Part shown: positions 7,338 through 43,690 of the stretch, piece after piece
Layout: each line of letters opens with the position of its first letter
Numbering within the stretch: position 1 is the first letter of the stretch
DNA from: Gelria sp. Kuro-4
GTDB taxonomy: Bacteria > Bacillota > DTU030 > DUMP01
Direction: 5' to 3'
DNA length: 64,000 bases
NCBI RefSeq assembly: GCF_019668485.1
Contig: NZ_AP024619.1
Span: forward strand, 743,001-807,000
Program-made: the position numbers and the translations under genes
The notes under the pieces: model-generated
What the model was told of the DNA's origin: nothing
Seen by the model: the letters and a program-made list of their open reading frames with translations, nothing else
The model's database searches: none

Positions 7338-7540
7338 CGCTGGGGTGAGGTAGAGGCGCGGTTGGTCAAGAGTAGCCGTCCAGAGCAGGGCAGCGAGGAG
7401 GGACGGGGAAAGGGGCCGCCGCCGAAGCCGGGGGCCGGCGCCGGGCACCCGAGCTGGGCCGGCGGGAAAGACCCGCCGGACTGTCGCCGGAGGCGTCCCC
7501 CAGCCGCCGGCGATGAGCTATCTCACCGCAAGGGGAAGGA
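7338..7540 (+). ncRNA. Lysine riboswitch (L box) 1
   Basis: The leader carries the conserved L-box blocks in order: GAGGTAGAGGCGCG, AAGAGTAG, GGGAAAGGGGCC with GCCGCCGAAG, then GGACTGTCGCC, and a closing GAGCTATC. These match the lysine riboswitch family (RF00168) as I know it. It lies between a sigma-A promoter and an intrinsic terminator ahead of a YfcC-family carrier. Lysine binding would be expected to stop transcription of the carrier and possibly the downstream amidohydrolase. Confidence 0.9.
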
Positions 7541-10369: not shown

Positions 10370-10580
10370 AGGGGGATGGGGTAGAGGTCGCGGGAGGTCA
10401 TAAGTACCGGCAGGGAGCAGGGCAGCAGAGGAACTGCCGGGAAAGGGGCCACACCGCCGAAGTCCGGTCCTCGCCCCGAGGGCCGCGGCTGGGGCTGCAG
10501 CGAACAGCTGCAGAACTGTCACCCGGTTGGCTGACCCGGCGGCCGGGTGGAGCGCTATCTCATTCAGGGAGAGGAGGGGA
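10370..10580 (+). ncRNA. Lysine riboswitch (L box) 2
   Basis: The conserved blocks are GGGGTAGAGGTCGCG, CATAAGTACC, GGGAAAGGGGCC with ACCGCCGAAG, CTGGGGCTGCAG paired to CTGCAGAACTGTCACC, and GCGCTATCTCA. They occur in the L-box order and spacing. The downstream carrier belongs to the NhaC superfamily, members of which (LysW) were predicted as lysine transporters from the same association. I do not see an unambiguous terminator between the aptamer and the gene; control of translation is possible. Confidence 0.9.
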
Positions 10581-29903: not shown

Positions 29904-29964
29904 GATTGCCGCAAAGTACCTACCGTGATAGAATCAAACCGGCCGAACACGGGAGGTGGCGGAC

Positions 29965-30171
29965 ATGCGTCAGGTTATCCTTTATCCTGGTGAAGATGGC
30001 TGGTGGGTAGTGGAGTGCCCGAGCCTTCCCGGCTGCGTGAGCCAGGGTAAGACAAAGGAAGAAGCCCTGCGCAATATTCGCGAGGCCGGCGGAGCCTATA
30101 TAGAAGCATTGGAGCAGGATGGTTTACCCGTTCCGCAAGAACGGTTTGATGTCATGGTGGTTGCAGTATGA
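29965..30171 (+). CDS. hicB: HicB-family antitoxin
   Basis: The 68-residue protein has the short HicB fold: YPGEDGWWVVECPSLPGCVSQGKTKEEALRNIREA. ATG 29965 is 7 nt after GGAGGT; the upstream GTG overlaps that site. Its stop overlaps the start of the hicA-like gene by 4 nt, the usual coupled arrangement. It would bind HicA and its own promoter. Confidence 0.85.
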   Translation: MRQVILYPGEDGWWVVECPSLPGCVSQGKTKEEALRNIREAGGAYIEALEQDGLPVPQERFDVMVVAV

Positions 30172-30388
30172 CTGCACTACCTGAGTCTCCAGTGCCGACT
30201 GTGCCAGCGCGCTCTGCAAAGTCGGGTTTCGCGCAGTTCGCCAGAAAGGAAGTCATGTTGTACTGCGCCGGGATGACCCGTTTGCACAAACGGTTGTGCC
30301 GAAGCATCTCGAGCTCGACCGGGGGACATTGAAGGCGATTCTCAGGCAAGCTGGGCTAACGGTCGAAGAGTTCTGTCGACAGTTATAG
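30168..30388 (+). pseudogene. hicA: HicA-like toxin with a frameshift near codon 5
   Basis: From about 30185 the frame reads VSSADCASALCKVGFRAVRQ, GSHVVLRRDDPFAQTVVP and LDRGTLKAILRQAGLTVEEF, a complete HicA RNase fold with the catalytic His in GSH. The ATG at 30168 that overlaps hicB is one base out of this frame (CCTGAGTC at 30180-30187). This is either a true inactivating deletion or a sequencing error; no other start with a ribosome site is obvious. Confidence 0.7.
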
Positions 30389-30455
30389 GATGACGTATTG
30401 GAGGCTAATATTAGCCGCCAAGGGTTTACTTTTTCTCTGAAACTGGTACAATAAA

Positions 30456-30488
30456 GGCAGAAGGCTTCTGAGAGCGAAGCCTTCTGCC
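30456..30488 (-). terminator. Terminator of the small minus-strand peptide gene
   Basis: A 13-bp perfect stem GGCAGAAGGCTTC / GAAGCCTTCTGCC has a 7-nt loop. On the minus strand it is followed by TTTATT, 52 nt past the stop of the 32-residue peptide. Confidence 0.75.
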
Positions 30489-30524
30489 GGAGGGTGTTGC
30501 AGCCCGAGGCAGCTGGAGTTGGCT

Positions 30525-30555
30525 GACGCTAGTTACAAGCTAGCGTCCCTTTTTT
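30525..30555 (+). terminator. Plus-strand terminator overlapping the peptide gene's 3' end
   Basis: GACGCTAG / CTAGCGTC with a 7-nt loop is followed by CCTTTTTT. It ends plus-strand transcription from hicBA, or an antisense RNA, inside the last codons of the minus-strand peptide gene. Confidence 0.8.
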
Positions 30556-30638
30556 AGGTACCACCGTAGCAATTGCAGCAGTGAGAGCGCAACTATAGGC
30601 GCGATTACCACCGACATACTGCCAACATGCAGTTCCAT
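30540..30638 (-). CDS. 32-residue membrane peptide, candidate type I toxin
   Basis: The peptide MELHVGSMSVVIAPIVALSL continues LQLLRWYLKKGR: one membrane helix followed by a basic tail, like many type I toxins. It has a strong ribosome site (gggggtgggagg). The 12 bases GGAGGATGGAAC that contain this site and the ATG (30632-30643) are matched perfectly by GTTCCATCCTCC (minus strand of 30699-30710) upstream. The mRNA could therefore close its own start. A -10 TATAAT lies at 30749-30754 on the minus strand (weak -35), and a terminator follows at 30456-30488. It is unannotated by homology; function is inference. Confidence 0.5.
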   Translation of the reverse strand: MELHVGSMSVVIAPIVALSLLQLLRWYLKKGR

Positions 30639-30914
30639 CCTCCCACCCCCTTCCAAGAGCATTACTGCTCCTGAGCCACAACACCCGATGGCAGGTGTGG
30701 AGGATGGAACCAACTGCCTGAACTGCCGGGTTATTCCCGTCCAGATTCATTATACAGACGCATAGAACATAAGTGCTAGAGATTTTTGGTTGCCGGCGCC
30801 GCCGGCTTTTTCTTTTGCTTCCCGGCAGGAAAATCCCTCCGCCTGGCGAAGATCCTGGAGAAAGTGACAATTTCCCGGGAAATAAGTAAAACCTGCGCGA
30901 AAGGAGCCGCCTTC
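30639..30914. other. Peptide-gene leader and galU upstream region
   Basis: The minus strand holds the -10 element and the sequestering arm (30699-30710) of the small peptide gene. The plus strand leads into galU with an AAAGGAG ribosome site; I see no clear plus-strand promoter. Confidence 0.45.
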
Positions 30915-32344: not shown

Positions 32345-34912
32345 ATGCAAGGTTTCAAGAAAGTCCTTGTGGCCCTGCTGGTGGTTGCAACCATCCTCGG
32401 GACCATAGGACCTGTATTCGCCGCCGAGAATACTAATGCGCCTAGCGAAGCTGCTACGCGGCTTCAAGCTATTGGTATCGCGAAAGGTGACGAAAAAGGT
32501 AATCTGAACGAGGACCAGCCCGTGACTCGTGCAGAGGCAGCTGCTCTTGTTGTTCGCGCCCTCGGCATGGAGAAGTCGGCGGAGCTTATGGGCGGAGCAA
32601 CAAAATTCGCAGATGTCAACGCTGATCCTGGGCTGCAGTGGGCGACTGGCGCGATTAACATTGCTGTGTCCCAGGGCATCATCAACGGCTATCCTGATGG
32701 CCGCTTTGGTGGGCGGGACCAGGTGACTTACGCTCAGTTCGCAAAGATGATGCTTTATGCTCTTAACTACGGTGTTACCGTTGAGGGCGGTATCTGGCCA
32801 ACCGCCGTATTGGCCAAGGCGGATGATATCAAACTCACAGATGGTCTAACAGTTGTGGCCAACGCTCCCATGATCCGGGGCGCTGTCTTCAAGATGGTTG
32901 ACAACGCTCTTGACGTGAAACCGCTTGTACAGTATGGTTACGGTTCTTCGACTCTTTATCAGCCGGGGGACCAAAAGCTTATTCAGAAACTCGGCTATGA
33001 TGAGCTAGAGGCACAGGTCACGGCTATCCCGGCGGCAGACAGCACGCTCAAAGATGATCAAGTGACGGTGACTTTGCAGAAAAAGAATGGCGCTGATGCT
33101 AGCGGGGATAAGACCTATACTGTTGGGCAAGGCGTAGATGTTAATGGACTGTTCGGTACGGTAGCGAAACTCTGGGTGAAGGACGACACAGTTATATATG
33201 CCCAACAAAAGACGAGCGACAGCGATGTTTACTATGATACCATAAAGTCTTACAGCAGCAGTCAGGTAAAACTGCTGGCACTTGACAAGACCATCGACCT
33301 CAAGTCCGGGGTAAAGACATATGTAAACTACGACGGCACGGCAACCCCAGCTGCAGACGAATACGGGCGTTTTGTCAAGGATAATAATCAGGTCAGCTTT
33401 ATTAATGTGTTCAGGTTCGACAAGATCAACGGCGGCATCGTAACCTCGGTGAGTGACAACGAGATCAAGTACTTTGCTGGTGCTAGCGCAACAACTCGCA
33501 CGCTGCGTCTTAGCCAGTTTGATAATGTGCATGTGTTATCTCCTAAGTTTGCTGAACTCAGCTTGAGCGACGTTAAGGCCGACAGCGTTATCTATGCCTG
33601 GGCTGACGGAACCGACGATCTATACATCGTAGTTGTTGGTGAGAAAGTAGAGGGCAAGCTGGACCGTGTGTCTACCGACAAAGTTAGGATTGACGGTAAG
33701 GACTACAAGGTGGTCCAGAAGGCAGACGGTACGGTTCTCGCTACTGTGTCGACTGACGAAGATGTCACCGTAAATAGTTACACGACTGATAATGCCAAGG
33801 GCCTGGTTGGCGAGGACGTAGTAGCTCTGCTGGGGCTCAACGGTCGGGTACAACACCTGCGCGGTGCCAGCGCAAAGACGACGGGCTGGAATTACGGCGT
33901 TGTCACCAATGCCTACTACAGTAACGGTACTCTTGCTCTCAAGGTGTTTACCAAGGACGGCGAGTCCGTAGTTTACGAACTGGAGAAGGAAGCTAATTGG
34001 CCAACTGACAACGCACACCTTAACTTTGGGGCAGACAATGGAAAGTTCTACGGAATTGCCTACAAGTTGAATTCGGACGGTCAGATCGCGAAGGATAAGC
34101 TAGTGATACTGCCGAGTATGAGTGGTACAGTTACATTAGACAGCGACACGTACGACGTCTACGTTGGCAACGTGAAGAAGGCTGACAAGGATCAACAGTA
34201 TGTTACTGAGGATGCGGCGACTGCGACTCGTTACTACGTTGATTCCGGTACCGTGCTAATGAAGGTTTATGATGGTACTGACAAAGATCCGGCGCTCGTT
34301 GACTGGAAGGTTGATCTCGACGGTACAACGTTGACTGGTAGTGATCCGCGGCAAGCGATCGTGGTTGGGACAAAAGATCAGTCTGCGAAGTTTATTCTGT
34401 TCACGTCCGAGAACTTCCAGGTGGCTTCTGCCGATTACTACTTCGGCGTAGCGGTTACGGACGAAACGTTCGATAGTGATAATGGGTATGCCACAATTGA
34501 TGTGGCTGGACAGGGCGAAAAGGAGTACACCTTCGATTCGTCGGCTGTCAGTGACATTACGAAGGGCGATTTGCTAGCGTTCCGCGTTACTGGTGACAAG
34601 GCGAAGAATGTCACGCATATCGACGTGCAGGCTTCGTCGCTGACTGTTGGAGCTACGTTGGCGAATTATGGTACTGCCAGTGTCGGTAAGGCAGTCTATG
34701 ATGTCGTCCAGGCTGTTTACAACAGTGGGCGTTATGTGAAATTCAGCGGTGTAACGTATACTGTTGACGCTGACGCAGTGGTGTACCTACTGAAGTCGGA
34801 CCAGAAGTTTGATATGGCAGGTGGCGTTGCCGACATCGAAACTGGTAAGCATGCCATCTTCCTCACCAAAGATAACGATGATAAGCTAATCAAGGCTATC
34901 GTTATCTGGTAG
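32345..34912 (+). CDS. S-layer protein with SLH anchoring domains
   Basis: The 855-residue exported protein has a signal peptide (FKKVLVALLVVATILG..VFAAE). SLH repeats occupy about residues 30-190 (GIAKGDEKGNLNEDQPVTRAEAA, FADVN..WATGAINIAVSQGIINGYPDGRFGGRDQVTYAQ). A long Asp/Lys/Thr-rich beta-type region without cysteine follows. The size, the SLH domains binding pyruvylated wall polymer and the strong promoter indicate the main S-layer lattice protein. Codon use is visibly less GC-rich than in its neighbours, which is usual for a highly expressed or horizontally varied surface gene. ATG 32345 follows aaaggagg. The accessory island begins directly after its terminator. Confidence 0.88.
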   Translation: MQGFKKVLVALLVVATILGTIGPVFAAENTNAPSEAATRLQAIGIAKGDEKGNLNEDQPVTRAEAAALVVRALGMEKSAELMGGATKFADVNADPGLQWATGAINIAVSQGIINGYPDGRFGGRDQVTYAQFAKMMLYALNYGVTVEGGIWPTAVLAKADDIKLTDGLTVVANAPMIRGAVFKMVDNALDVKPLVQYGYGSSTLYQPGDQKLIQKLGYDELEAQVTAIPAADSTLKDDQVTVTLQKKNGADASGDKTYTVGQGVDVNGLFGTVAKLWVKDDTVIYAQQKTSDSDVYYDTIKSYSSSQVKLLALDKTIDLKSGVKTYVNYDGTATPAADEYGRFVKDNNQVSFINVFRFDKINGGIVTSVSDNEIKYFAGASATTRTLRLSQFDNVHVLSPKFAELSLSDVKADSVIYAWADGTDDLYIVVVGEKVEGKLDRVSTDKVRIDGKDYKVVQKADGTVLATVSTDEDVTVNSYTTDNAKGLVGEDVVALLGLNGRVQHLRGASAKTTGWNYGVVTNAYYSNGTLALKVFTKDGESVVYELEKEANWPTDNAHLNFGADNGKFYGIAYKLNSDGQIAKDKLVILPSMSGTVTLDSDTYDVYVGNVKKADKDQQYVTEDAATATRYYVDSGTVLMKVYDGTDKDPALVDWKVDLDGTTLTGSDPRQAIVVGTKDQSAKFILFTSENFQVASADYYFGVAVTDETFDSDNGYATIDVAGQGEKEYTFDSSAVSDITKGDLLAFRVTGDKAKNVTHIDVQASSLTVGATLANYGTASVGKAVYDVVQAVYNSGRYVKFSGVTYTVDADAVVYLLKSDQKFDMAGGVADIETGKHAIFLTKDNDDKLIKAIVIW

Positions 34913-34953
34913 CATCGAATGGTGCCGGACGCCTAGCAACTGATGGGACCTCT

Positions 34954-35013
34954 GGTGCCAGGCACCTGGGAACGAATGGAAGAAGGCTCCAGCCTCTTGG
35001 CTGGGGCCTTTTT
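34954..35013 (+). terminator. Family C repeat joined to the S-layer terminator
   Basis: GGTGCCAGGCACC (34954-34966) is followed by cctgggaacgaatggaag and then by a terminator stem GGCTCCAGCC / GGCTGGGGCC plus TTTTT (34985-35013). The same repeat-plus-hairpin arrangement recurs at 42241-42304. Confidence 0.75.
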
Positions 35014-35017
35014 CATG

Positions 35018-35060
35018 TGCGCCCGGCATGGGCGCTGTCTCTAGGGTGCAAGTCCCGTGG
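35018..35060 (+). pseudogene. Group II intron 5' fragment
   Basis: GTGCGCCCGGCATGGGCG followed by tctagggtgcaagtcccg is the kind of sequence that opens bacterial group II introns (GUGYG start, GGUGCAAGUCCCG block). Only about 43 nt remain before a family B repeat, so it is a truncated remnant. Confidence 0.45.
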
Positions 35061-35061
35061 G

Positions 35062-35672
35062 CTGCCGCGGGGACGGTTCTTGTGGCAGGTCCTGATGAAG
35101 GGCCTAGGTGGAGAGGCACAAGAACCTCCTGAGCTGCCATGGGGACCGGAGCTGTCACGGGGACGGTTCTCTTGGCAGGTAAGTGGCAACCGAAAAGCCT
35201 CGCGGAGGGCGACTCAGCCTCACTGCGAGGCCTTTCTTTTTTTTCCGCATCTGCCTGCCCTCTGGGGCGGCCGCGGGGGGCCGGCTGCCACCGGGGGCTG
35301 CCATGGGGACGGTTCTTGTGGCAGGTCCTGATGAAGGGCCTAGGTAGAGAGGCACAAGAACCTCCTGACATTCAGATCGAAGGGGACCGGACGGTGCCGG
35401 GCACCTGGAAAGGAGTGGAAGAAGGCCCCTGCCGTTGTGGCGGAGGCCTTCAGTACTCAAGGGCAGATGTGGTGGGCGATCTGAGGAAGGAGAGGGAGTA
35501 CTTGTTAGGCGCCGAGGAATAAACGGTGTCTGCAGCTGGTTGGGACTTCTTGGAACCTGCGGGTTACTTCTTAGCATACCAAGCGAGGAAATCTTCCCGC
35601 GTTACCTCAGCATCTCGAAGGATTTTACTAGTTATCCCTCGGTCTGCCGCGGGGACGGTTCTTGCGGCAGGT
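35062..35672 (+). repeat. Cluster of four family B REP copies
   Basis: The copies are at 35062-35090, 35152-35180, 35298-35326 and 35644-35672. The consensus is CTGCC-rYG-GGGACGGTTCTTGTGGCAGGT, with CTGCC/GGCAG able to pair. The stretch 35062-35133 is repeated at 35298-35369. The segment 34913-35728 carries no gene I can support. Confidence 0.85.
35346..35384 (+). pseudogene. DUF4160 gene fragment
   Basis: The frame reads REAQEPPDIQIEGD, corresponding to the REAQEPPHIHVEAGD segment of the intact DUF4160 gene at 38159. A shorter piece lies at 35111-35131. Both follow a family B repeat. Confidence 0.6.
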
Positions 35673-35728
35673 CTCGGGCTGGTAGGAAAGCGCGGGGAAA
35701 GGTATAATGATACAGGGGCGATAGGGAT

Positions 35729-36496
35729 ATGCCGAGAACAGTAAGAGAAAAGAGTAATACCGGTGTCTATCACGCGATCCTGCGTGGCATTAACCGCCAG
35801 ACCATCTTCGAGGATGAGGAGGACGCCACGAAGTTTGTGGAGACACTGGGCGAGTGCCGGAAGAAAAGTGAATTCAGGCTGTACGCCTACTGTCTGATGG
35901 GCAATCATGCGCACTTCTTGGTAAAGGAGGGGAGAGAAGATTTAGGCGTCACTGTTAAGCGCGTGAGGGCCAGCTATGTTTACTGGTATAACAGGAAATA
36001 CGGACGCTGTGGTCATCTCTTCCAGGACCGGTATAAAAGCGAACCCGTGGAGGACGACAAATACTTTTTAGCAGTTCTACGGTACATACACCAGAACCCT
36101 GTAAAGGCCGGGATAGTTAAGGAACTGGTCGACTATCCATGGAGCAGTTACAGGGAGTATCTGAACAATGGTAGACTTGTAGAGACGGACTTTGCCCTTG
36201 GGTTATTCAGTGATGACAGGCTGAAGGCTGTGGAGGCTTTCAAGCGGTTCCACGAAATCGAAGGACAGGAAAACTGTTTAGACATAGACGAAAAGAGGAA
36301 GCCGACAGATGCCGAGGCGATTGAGTTGATCAGGCGCATTTGCCAGGTGGCGAACTGCAAAGAAGTGCAGAAGCTGGACAAAGCGCAGCGAAGCCGGTAT
36401 TTTAGGTTACTAGCCGATGAGGGATTATCAGCCCGGCAGATCAGCCGGATCACCGGTATCGGTAGGTGGGTGATCCTGAATGCTCTTGAAAACTGA
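35729..36496 (+). CDS. REP-associated Y1 transposase (RAYT) 2
   Basis: The 255-residue protein begins with the RAYT-like NTGVYHAILRGINRQTIFED. It has an HUH variant in LMGNHAHFLVKEG near residue 57 and the nucleophile Tyr in YFLAVLRYIHQNPVKAGIVKE near 110-130. The C-terminal tail has a helix-turn-helix-like end (LSARQISRITGIGRWVILNAL). It is a different subfamily from the copy at 18515: shorter, without the DnaA-like domain. A family B repeat lies 57 bp upstream, so families B or C are its likely substrates (inference). ATG 35729 follows ggggcgatagggat. Confidence 0.88.
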   Translation: MPRTVREKSNTGVYHAILRGINRQTIFEDEEDATKFVETLGECRKKSEFRLYAYCLMGNHAHFLVKEGREDLGVTVKRVRASYVYWYNRKYGRCGHLFQDRYKSEPVEDDKYFLAVLRYIHQNPVKAGIVKELVDYPWSSYREYLNNGRLVETDFALGLFSDDRLKAVEAFKRFHEIEGQENCLDIDEKRKPTDAEAIELIRRICQVANCKEVQKLDKAQRSRYFRLLADEGLSARQISRITGIGRWVILNALEN

Positions 36497-37758: not shown

Positions 37759-37901
37759 AGATCGAAGCTCTGGTGCTGGGACACCTGCGGCTTCCGGTGC
37801 CGCGCACCTGTGCACGCATAAAAGAAGGCTCCTGCCGGTGGGCCTCTAGTACCGGACACCTGGAACACATAAGACACGTCTAAGATCGCATGTTAAAATG
37901 G
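37747..37901 (+). repeat. 155-bp duplicated segment, copy 1
   Basis: It is nearly identical to 42662-42814. It carries a family C repeat (37796-37808) and ends at gcatgttaaaatgg. Group II intron debris follows this copy. Confidence 0.85.
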
Positions 37902-38073
37902 ACTCCCGCCGGGAAAGGGCCAGCCACCCACCCGTAGCCAGCCTTGGAGCCAAACTGGCAACAGCTTGGTTCAAGCGTAGGTAGGCCAGGGAGCGGGCTG
38001 AAAGCGAAAGCAGAAGACGATGAACCACGAAATGCTGAAGGGGAAGCCAGCTGCAGCTCTAGAGCAGATGAAG
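37901..38073 (+). pseudogene. Group II intron domain I-like fragment, copy 1
   Basis: The segment includes CTCCCGCCGGGAAAGGGCCA, cccgtagccagcc, aacagcttggttcaag and gggctgaaagcgaaag, which resemble domain I of bacterial group II introns. No reverse transcriptase or 3' end follows. A near copy lies at 43515-43690. Confidence 0.45.
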
Positions 38074-43450: not shown

Positions 43451-43514
43451 AAGGGCTTCGGGCCTCCAGTGCCGGGCAGTGCGGCCGAGCAAGGTCACGT
43501 CATATGGTGGGTGC

Positions 43515-43690
43515 GACTCCCGCCGGGAAAGGGCCAGCTACCTACCCGTAGCCAGCCTTGGAACCAAGCTGGTAACAGCTTGGTTCAAGTGTAGGCAGAC
43601 CAGGGGGCAGGCTGAAAGCGAAAGTAGAAGACGATGAGCCACGAAATGCTGAAGGGGAAGCCAGCTGCTGCAGCTCTAGAGCAGATGAAG
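43515..43690 (+). pseudogene. Group II intron domain I-like fragment, copy 2
   Basis: It aligns with 37901-38073 at high identity (CTCCCGCCGGGAAAGGGCCA, then gaaagcgaaagtagaagacg). No intron-encoded protein is present. Confidence 0.45.

Follow-up and report, generated by a model that had tools for sequence, protein, structure and literature searches.

In the par/Fst system of the Enterococcus faecalis plasmid pAD1, the toxin mRNA and the antisense RNA are convergent; the mRNA has a helix at its 5' end, and its Shine-Dalgarno sequence (SD) is concealed in an intramolecular stem (PMC7472228). In txpA/RatA of Bacillus subtilis, the convergent RNAs overlap at their 3' ends by about 120 nt, and the txpA mRNA is about 270 nt long (PMC3531473). 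The antisense RNA of bsrG/SR4 (Bacillus subtilis) acts at the 3' end of the mRNA, where it changes the structure of the SD region and promotes cleavage (PMC8167048). A long-distance 5'–3' interaction within the toxin mRNA is described for hok/Sok and aapA/IsoA (PMC6733600). Here we describe a locus in a 64,000-nt stretch of the chromosome of Gelria sp. Kuro-4 (NZ_AP024619.1, positions 743,001 to 807,000; "the window"), whose outline of working is like that of par, txpA/RatA and bsrG/SR4. Judged from its sequence and that of its homologues, it is very probably a chromosomal type I toxin–antitoxin module and a member of a multi-copy family.

The locus resembles par/Fst in its convergent RNAs, in a one-helix peptide of about 33 residues that has an IAP core and a charged tail, and in an mRNA with a 5' helix and an SD-hiding stem. 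It differs in the repeat between the leader and the 3' untranslated region (UTR), which is inverted and not direct, and in its antisense RNA of about 97 nt compared with about 40 in par. As in txpA/RatA, the RNAs are convergent and overlap at their 3' ends (about 97 nt in the present family), whereas TxpA has 59 residues and RatA runs past txpA while the present antisense stays inside the mRNA. By analogy, the mechanism of bsrG/SR4 would also apply here; no sequence relationship to it was found, and the leader segment mimicking the antisense is particular to the present family. The fold-back of hok/Sok and aapA/IsoA makes the mRNA inert, whereas the modelled one tends to open the SD. The antisense of hok/Sok and IsoA overlaps the 5' part of the mRNA, and the present one overlaps the 3' part.

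Predicted toxin and antisense genes of the window locus

The elements of the locus, in window coordinates, are as follows.

30749-30754, minus: TATAAT −10 element of the toxin mRNA; predicted transcript start near 30742
30449-30742, minus: predicted toxin mRNA, about 294 nt; ends placed from promoter and terminator positions
30727-30739, minus: 5'-end hairpin CGGGAATAACCCG; equivalent in other copies ACAGGT..ACCTG
30699-30710, minus: start-sequestering arm GTTCCATCCTCC, lengthened by CACC at 30697-30694
30668-30686, minus: leader segment mimicking the antisense core motif, GGGTGTTGTGGCTCAGGAG; its partner is the 3' UTR at 30512-30492
30632-30652, minus: SD AAGGGGGTG (30652-30644) and start region; paired arm GGAGGATGGAAC at 30643-30632
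30540-30638, minus: putative toxin open reading frame (ORF) MELHVGSMSVVIAPIVALSLLQLLRWYLKKGR, 32 residues; residues 8-24 form a single hydrophobic helix, and the tail is basic
30492-30512, minus: fold-back target in the 3' UTR, CTGCCTCGGGCTGCAACACCC
30456-30488, minus: intrinsic terminator of the toxin mRNA; on the other strand the same segment forms the 5' hairpin of the antisense RNA
30425-30452, plus: antisense promoter TTTACT-16-TACAAT, with TG upstream of the −10
30459-30556, plus: predicted antisense RNA antitoxin, about 97 nt; ends likewise predicted
30489-30509, plus: conserved antisense core motif, GGAGGGTGTTGCAGCCCGAGG
30525-30556, plus: intrinsic antisense terminator; overlaps the stop codon of the toxin ORF

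A preliminary description of the window had proposed a type I toxin organisation around a 32-residue basic-tailed peptide gene on the minus strand (30638-30540), and the ORF is present there, together with the −10 element and the minus-strand terminator that it had listed (30754-30749; 30488-30456). The opposing plus-strand terminator (30525-30547), said to allow an antisense RNA, was also found; the plus-strand promoter at 30425-30452, which had been overlooked, makes the antisense gene explicit. As the plus strand carries both a promoter and a terminator, an antisense RNA of about 97 nt is predicted, lying entirely within the mRNA span and extending to the last ORF codons. The toxin promoter of the window has no good −35 element; four copies in another genome (G179, below) have TTGCGA with a spacer of 17–18 nt.

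The arm GTTCCATCCTCC (30710-30699) is fully paired with GGAGGATGGAAC (30643-30632), with a loop of 55 nt between them, as described before, and the 64-kb window holds no other perfect 12-bp inverted repeat with a loop of 20–120 nt. The ribosome site and the ATG had both been placed inside this arm, which is correct for the ATG and not for the SD: the arm spans the spacer, the ATG and codons 2–3, and the SD proper lies just outside, partly covered by four extra pairs (CACC 30697-30694 with GGTG 30647-30644). The best leader/start helix of the window exceeded 300 of 300 shuffles. The minimum free energy of the mRNA was −153.8 kcal/mol, compared with an average of −109.3 kcal/mol for shuffled sequences (z −7.4), and none of 100 shuffles was as low.

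Copies in the same chromosome and in other genomes

The very small size of both components makes type I systems difficult to detect, and the present family was found through its RNA. A first pairwise peptide search of the same chromosome gave four weak matches (E 0.001–0.1). The paralogues are MEVHIGPLDIVIAPLVALVLLRYILANIRKKK (GTG start), MELHIGPLEIVIALLVAIVLLRLYFQHRSRK (ATG), MELKIGPIEVAIAPLVAIVLLRMYFQHRSRK (GTG) and MELKIGPIEFAVAPLVAIVLLRLYFQYKSKK (TTG). In a profile search the five peptides of this genome reached E values of 6e-17 to 2e-20, which are circular in part, since the same five peptides are the rows used to build the profile. A covariance model of the antisense RNA detected eight genes in the chromosome, five with an intact toxin ORF of 31–32 residues and three with the ORF broken or deleted. 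Of the decayed toxins, the one at 2835047 is frameshifted, the one at 572210 lacks its N-terminal half, and at 2865400 the ORF is deleted; the antisense gene was retained at all three. Each paralogue has a convergent antisense gene, and every toxin copy in this genome has its antisense. All eight antisense genes lie on the same strand, and 0.78–2.62 Mb of the 2.88-Mb chromosome is empty of them. At one locus (L056, near 1441-1484) an antisense copy starts just downstream of an apparent tRNA 3' end. The 3' ends of tRNA genes are usual integration sites.

A search of 399 genomes of the phylum with the antisense model gave a match in G179, a genome of a different family. On its contig 63 the antisense-RNA model and an independent weak peptide-profile match coincided. 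In G179 the peptide was located at ten places and the antisense at twelve, and the ORF is intact at seven (e.g. MEIHLFGISIVVAPVVALVAISLATKMLQRTKQKR). An antisense gene adjoins all 15 peptide places (five in the Gelria genome, ten in G179). Antisense promoters of the family had 8–11 of 12 consensus matches, with TTGACA-17-CATAAT in four G179 copies. Decayed toxin ORFs were seen in G179 at C22:14815 (L117), C84:9231 (L118) and C40:3195 (L120); two of these share an insert of about 60 nt at the same position, and in the third the central part of the ORF is inverted where it stands.

A third genome, G121, carries a single locus with the same antisense core, ribosome-binding-site (RBS) helix and fold-back, and an unrelated peptide, MTQIIAAVISGVFQVIVALIRRSGNGAKKEEGRSRKRPSSRRK. 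Matches to a retrained sequence-only RNA model (R2) were confined to these three genomes. The distribution is patchy and the copy number high in two of the three carriers; one genome may hold the family at as many as a dozen places, and decay takes the form of a lost toxin and a kept antisense. The search also covered two other genomes of the genus, in which the module was not found. A DNA-level search of 61 relatives gave chance matches only, plasmids, phages and viral contigs searched with the peptide gave no match, and a pattern scan of genome contigs for the antisense core gave 16 matches against about 15 expected by our own estimate. Weaker RNA-model matches in G274, G089, G372, G025 and others were taken as chance, because neither the peptide nor the core motif was present in those inspected, and R2 recovered none of the matches.

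Leader helix, fold-back and a possible switch

The start-hiding helix shows compensatory changes in the aligned sequences. The RBS helix was counted over nine homologous pairs in thirteen copies, the window copy being excluded because its arm is in another register. The pairs were formed in 114 of 117 cells, and T-A to C-G double changes were observed at four of the nine pairs (3, 6, 7 and 8). MAFFT misaligned the RBS arms, so the arms were set by hand and the pairing is partly by construction; this was addressed by a re-pairing test on the eight distinct arm pairs, in which 3 of 20,000 permutations reached the observed Watson-Crick count. Among homologues, the arm on which the preliminary description had centred was retained with these changes and partly lost only in own2838, a copy in the same chromosome.

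The leader strand resembles the antisense core motif and is usually one base shorter; most of the differences still pair as G-U. RNAalifold, run on five copies, selected the leader/3'-UTR pairing unprompted, and local duplexes of 18–22 pairs were found in all 14 copies. In a restricted fold-back test against dinucleotide shuffles of the 3' UTR or the leader, 12 of the 14 copies exceeded the shuffles; the two others, C63a and C63c, have longer 3' UTRs or targets clipped by the 62-nt test window. When leader × 3'-UTR duplexes were left unrestricted, their energies did not surpass those of shuffles in most copies, owing to the high G+C, and the restricted test is the one relied on. Identity-only scoring gave a weak signal, because many of the pairs are G-U. 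In 9 of 11 copies the energy models placed the fold-back no more than about 4 kcal/mol from the free ensemble. Modelled fold-back increased SD accessibility in most copies, and accessibility decreased again in most when the antisense occupied the 3' end. Crossing pairs lie beyond the energy model, so that the mutual exclusion of the leader/start helix and the fold-back is an inference.

In the proposed mechanism, the leader helix over the SD or start codon would hold off translation of a membrane peptide of 31–35 residues. The antisense RNA of about 97 nt would pair with the 3' part of the mRNA and silence it, probably via RNase III cleavage as in txpA/RatA; as in bsrG/SR4, it may also affect how the mRNA folds around the SD. 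Lying between the arms, the leader segment copies the antisense core and could pair with the 3' UTR instead, so that the SD would tend to open; antisense bound at the 3' end would remove this partner, and the SD would close again. We tentatively suggest, with rather less than even confidence, that the mRNA is a two-state switch with an antitoxin decoy, in which the leader competes with the antisense for the 3'-UTR site (leader bound, SD free; antisense bound, RBS helix closed about 150 nt away), and that the RNA chassis may be reused with unrelated peptides, as in G121. The covarying fold-back is common to three bacterial families, which makes 3'-end antisense control of a distant ribosome site directly testable.

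Nature of the peptide and neighbourhood of the copies

The ORF is under purifying selection at the sequence level, with pooled ratios of nonsynonymous to synonymous substitution (dN/dS) of 0.24 for three copies of the Gelria genome and 0.40 for seven G179 copies. The peptide frame is kept in five and seven copies of these genomes, respectively, and dN/dS stays below 1; together with the homologues and the covariation, this frame conservation supports the type I organisation proposed earlier. The start codon varies between ATG, GTG and TTG at one position, and the SD is kept. Type I toxins are short hydrophobic peptides, mostly below 60 residues, that have one helix and charged residues. Family peptides have 31–35 residues, a Kyte-Doolittle maximum of 2.1–2.8 over 17 residues and a net charge of +2 to +6, and every one has a single hydrophobic helix and a basic tail.

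For comparison with Fst, four Fst toxins or homologues from plasmids were used. Profile–profile comparison with the four gave a probability of 82% (E 1.1e-5), and none of 200 controls with permuted Fst core columns scored as high. Fst members and LdrD outscored unrelated single-helix peptides. An early reading, that the peptide is related to no known toxin family, was revised by this comparison. No copy of the family matched Pfam Fst_toxin. The P/D/S/TXXXG(C) motif of the Fst/Ldr superfamily, PXXXG being the hallmark of Fst, was not found in the membrane helix, where PxxxL or PxxxI is present in all copies except own2740 (no such proline). A tryptophan between helix and charged tail was found in the window peptide only, and pAD1 Fst itself is without it. 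The par direct repeats DRa/DRb scored at shuffle level, and instead of the shared bidirectional terminator of par, each RNA has a separate terminator. Models of the txpA/BsrG family, Hok, Ldr, Ibs and TisB (Pfam/NCBIfam) gave no toxin-family match at E up to 5–10, and PADLOC matched no family. Rfam gave nothing at gathering score over the module and nothing up to E 1 at the G179 and G121 loci. On sequence grounds, the peptide is probably a distant cousin of Fst/Ldr, and we do not file it as a member. The preliminary description had recognised no family, a statement now refined to a new multi-copy family with a distantly Fst/Ldr-like toxin, which may bridge Fst/Ldr peptides and a different RNA control.

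Several points weigh against the type I reading or its details. The window copy is the most diverged of the family, its 12-bp arm has a register different from that of the other copies, and it is the clear exception in the energy models, with a fold-back state 19 kcal/mol worse than the closed state. Own2838 has lost a recognisable mRNA promoter along with part of its arm. By length alone the G179 leader helices were within chance, so the G179 case relies on covariation and position. Lastly, a conserved small basic-tailed peptide need not be toxic.

The strongest alternative is that the product is not a toxin but a small regulatory peptide of the membrane, acting as subunit or modulator of a membrane complex and controlled by the antisense. 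Bacteria have many non-toxic single-helix peptides of similar size, but the present copies are multiple, patchy and decaying, the antisense outlasts the ORF in decayed copies, and intact ones combine a start-hiding leader with an antisense. The gene neighbours are toxin–antitoxin genes, and the profile likeness is to Fst/Ldr and not to unrelated single-helix peptides; we consider this alternative unlikely. That the ORF is incidental to a repeated non-coding RNA element, either a riboregulator or similar to a miniature inverted-repeat transposable element, would fit the repeated copies, the RNA being more conserved than the peptide across genomes, and the different peptide of G121. The dN/dS values, the alternation of start codons at one position behind a kept SD, and the hydrophobic helix and basic tail of the G121 ORF behind the same leader make it very improbable. 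Chance has practically no weight, for although each feature alone could be accidental and a terminator scan expects about one such site in the region, the full arrangement recurs in at least 10 further copies in two genomes, plus decayed ones, and the homologues already refute it.

Next to the type I module, a HicB-like antitoxin gene is followed in the window (29956-30390, plus) by a HicA-like toxin sequence with its frame broken near the 5' end. Other copies also have type II neighbours: nucleotidyltransferase/HepT and PIN adjoin the copy at 2838 kb, and Fic/Doc the one at 572 kb, while a DUF5615 PIN-like gene lies at 2835 kb and a PIN gene at 2865 kb. These neighbours are suggestive of islands where toxin–antitoxin modules collect.

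Separately, copies or antisense remnants at L036, L054, L056, L058 and L059 were seen to adjoin type II toxin–antitoxin genes (MNT/HepT, PIN, DUF5615, Fic/Doc and HicAB). Elsewhere in the window, a transposase-like ORF (35729-36496) of the type associated with repetitive extragenic palindromes was noted by eye beside repeated GGGGACGGTTC-type sequences (34900-36496). Two lysine riboswitches separated by 3 kb were also observed, as were the ends of two group II introns (7343-7528, 10374-10565, 37900-38066 and 43514-43683).
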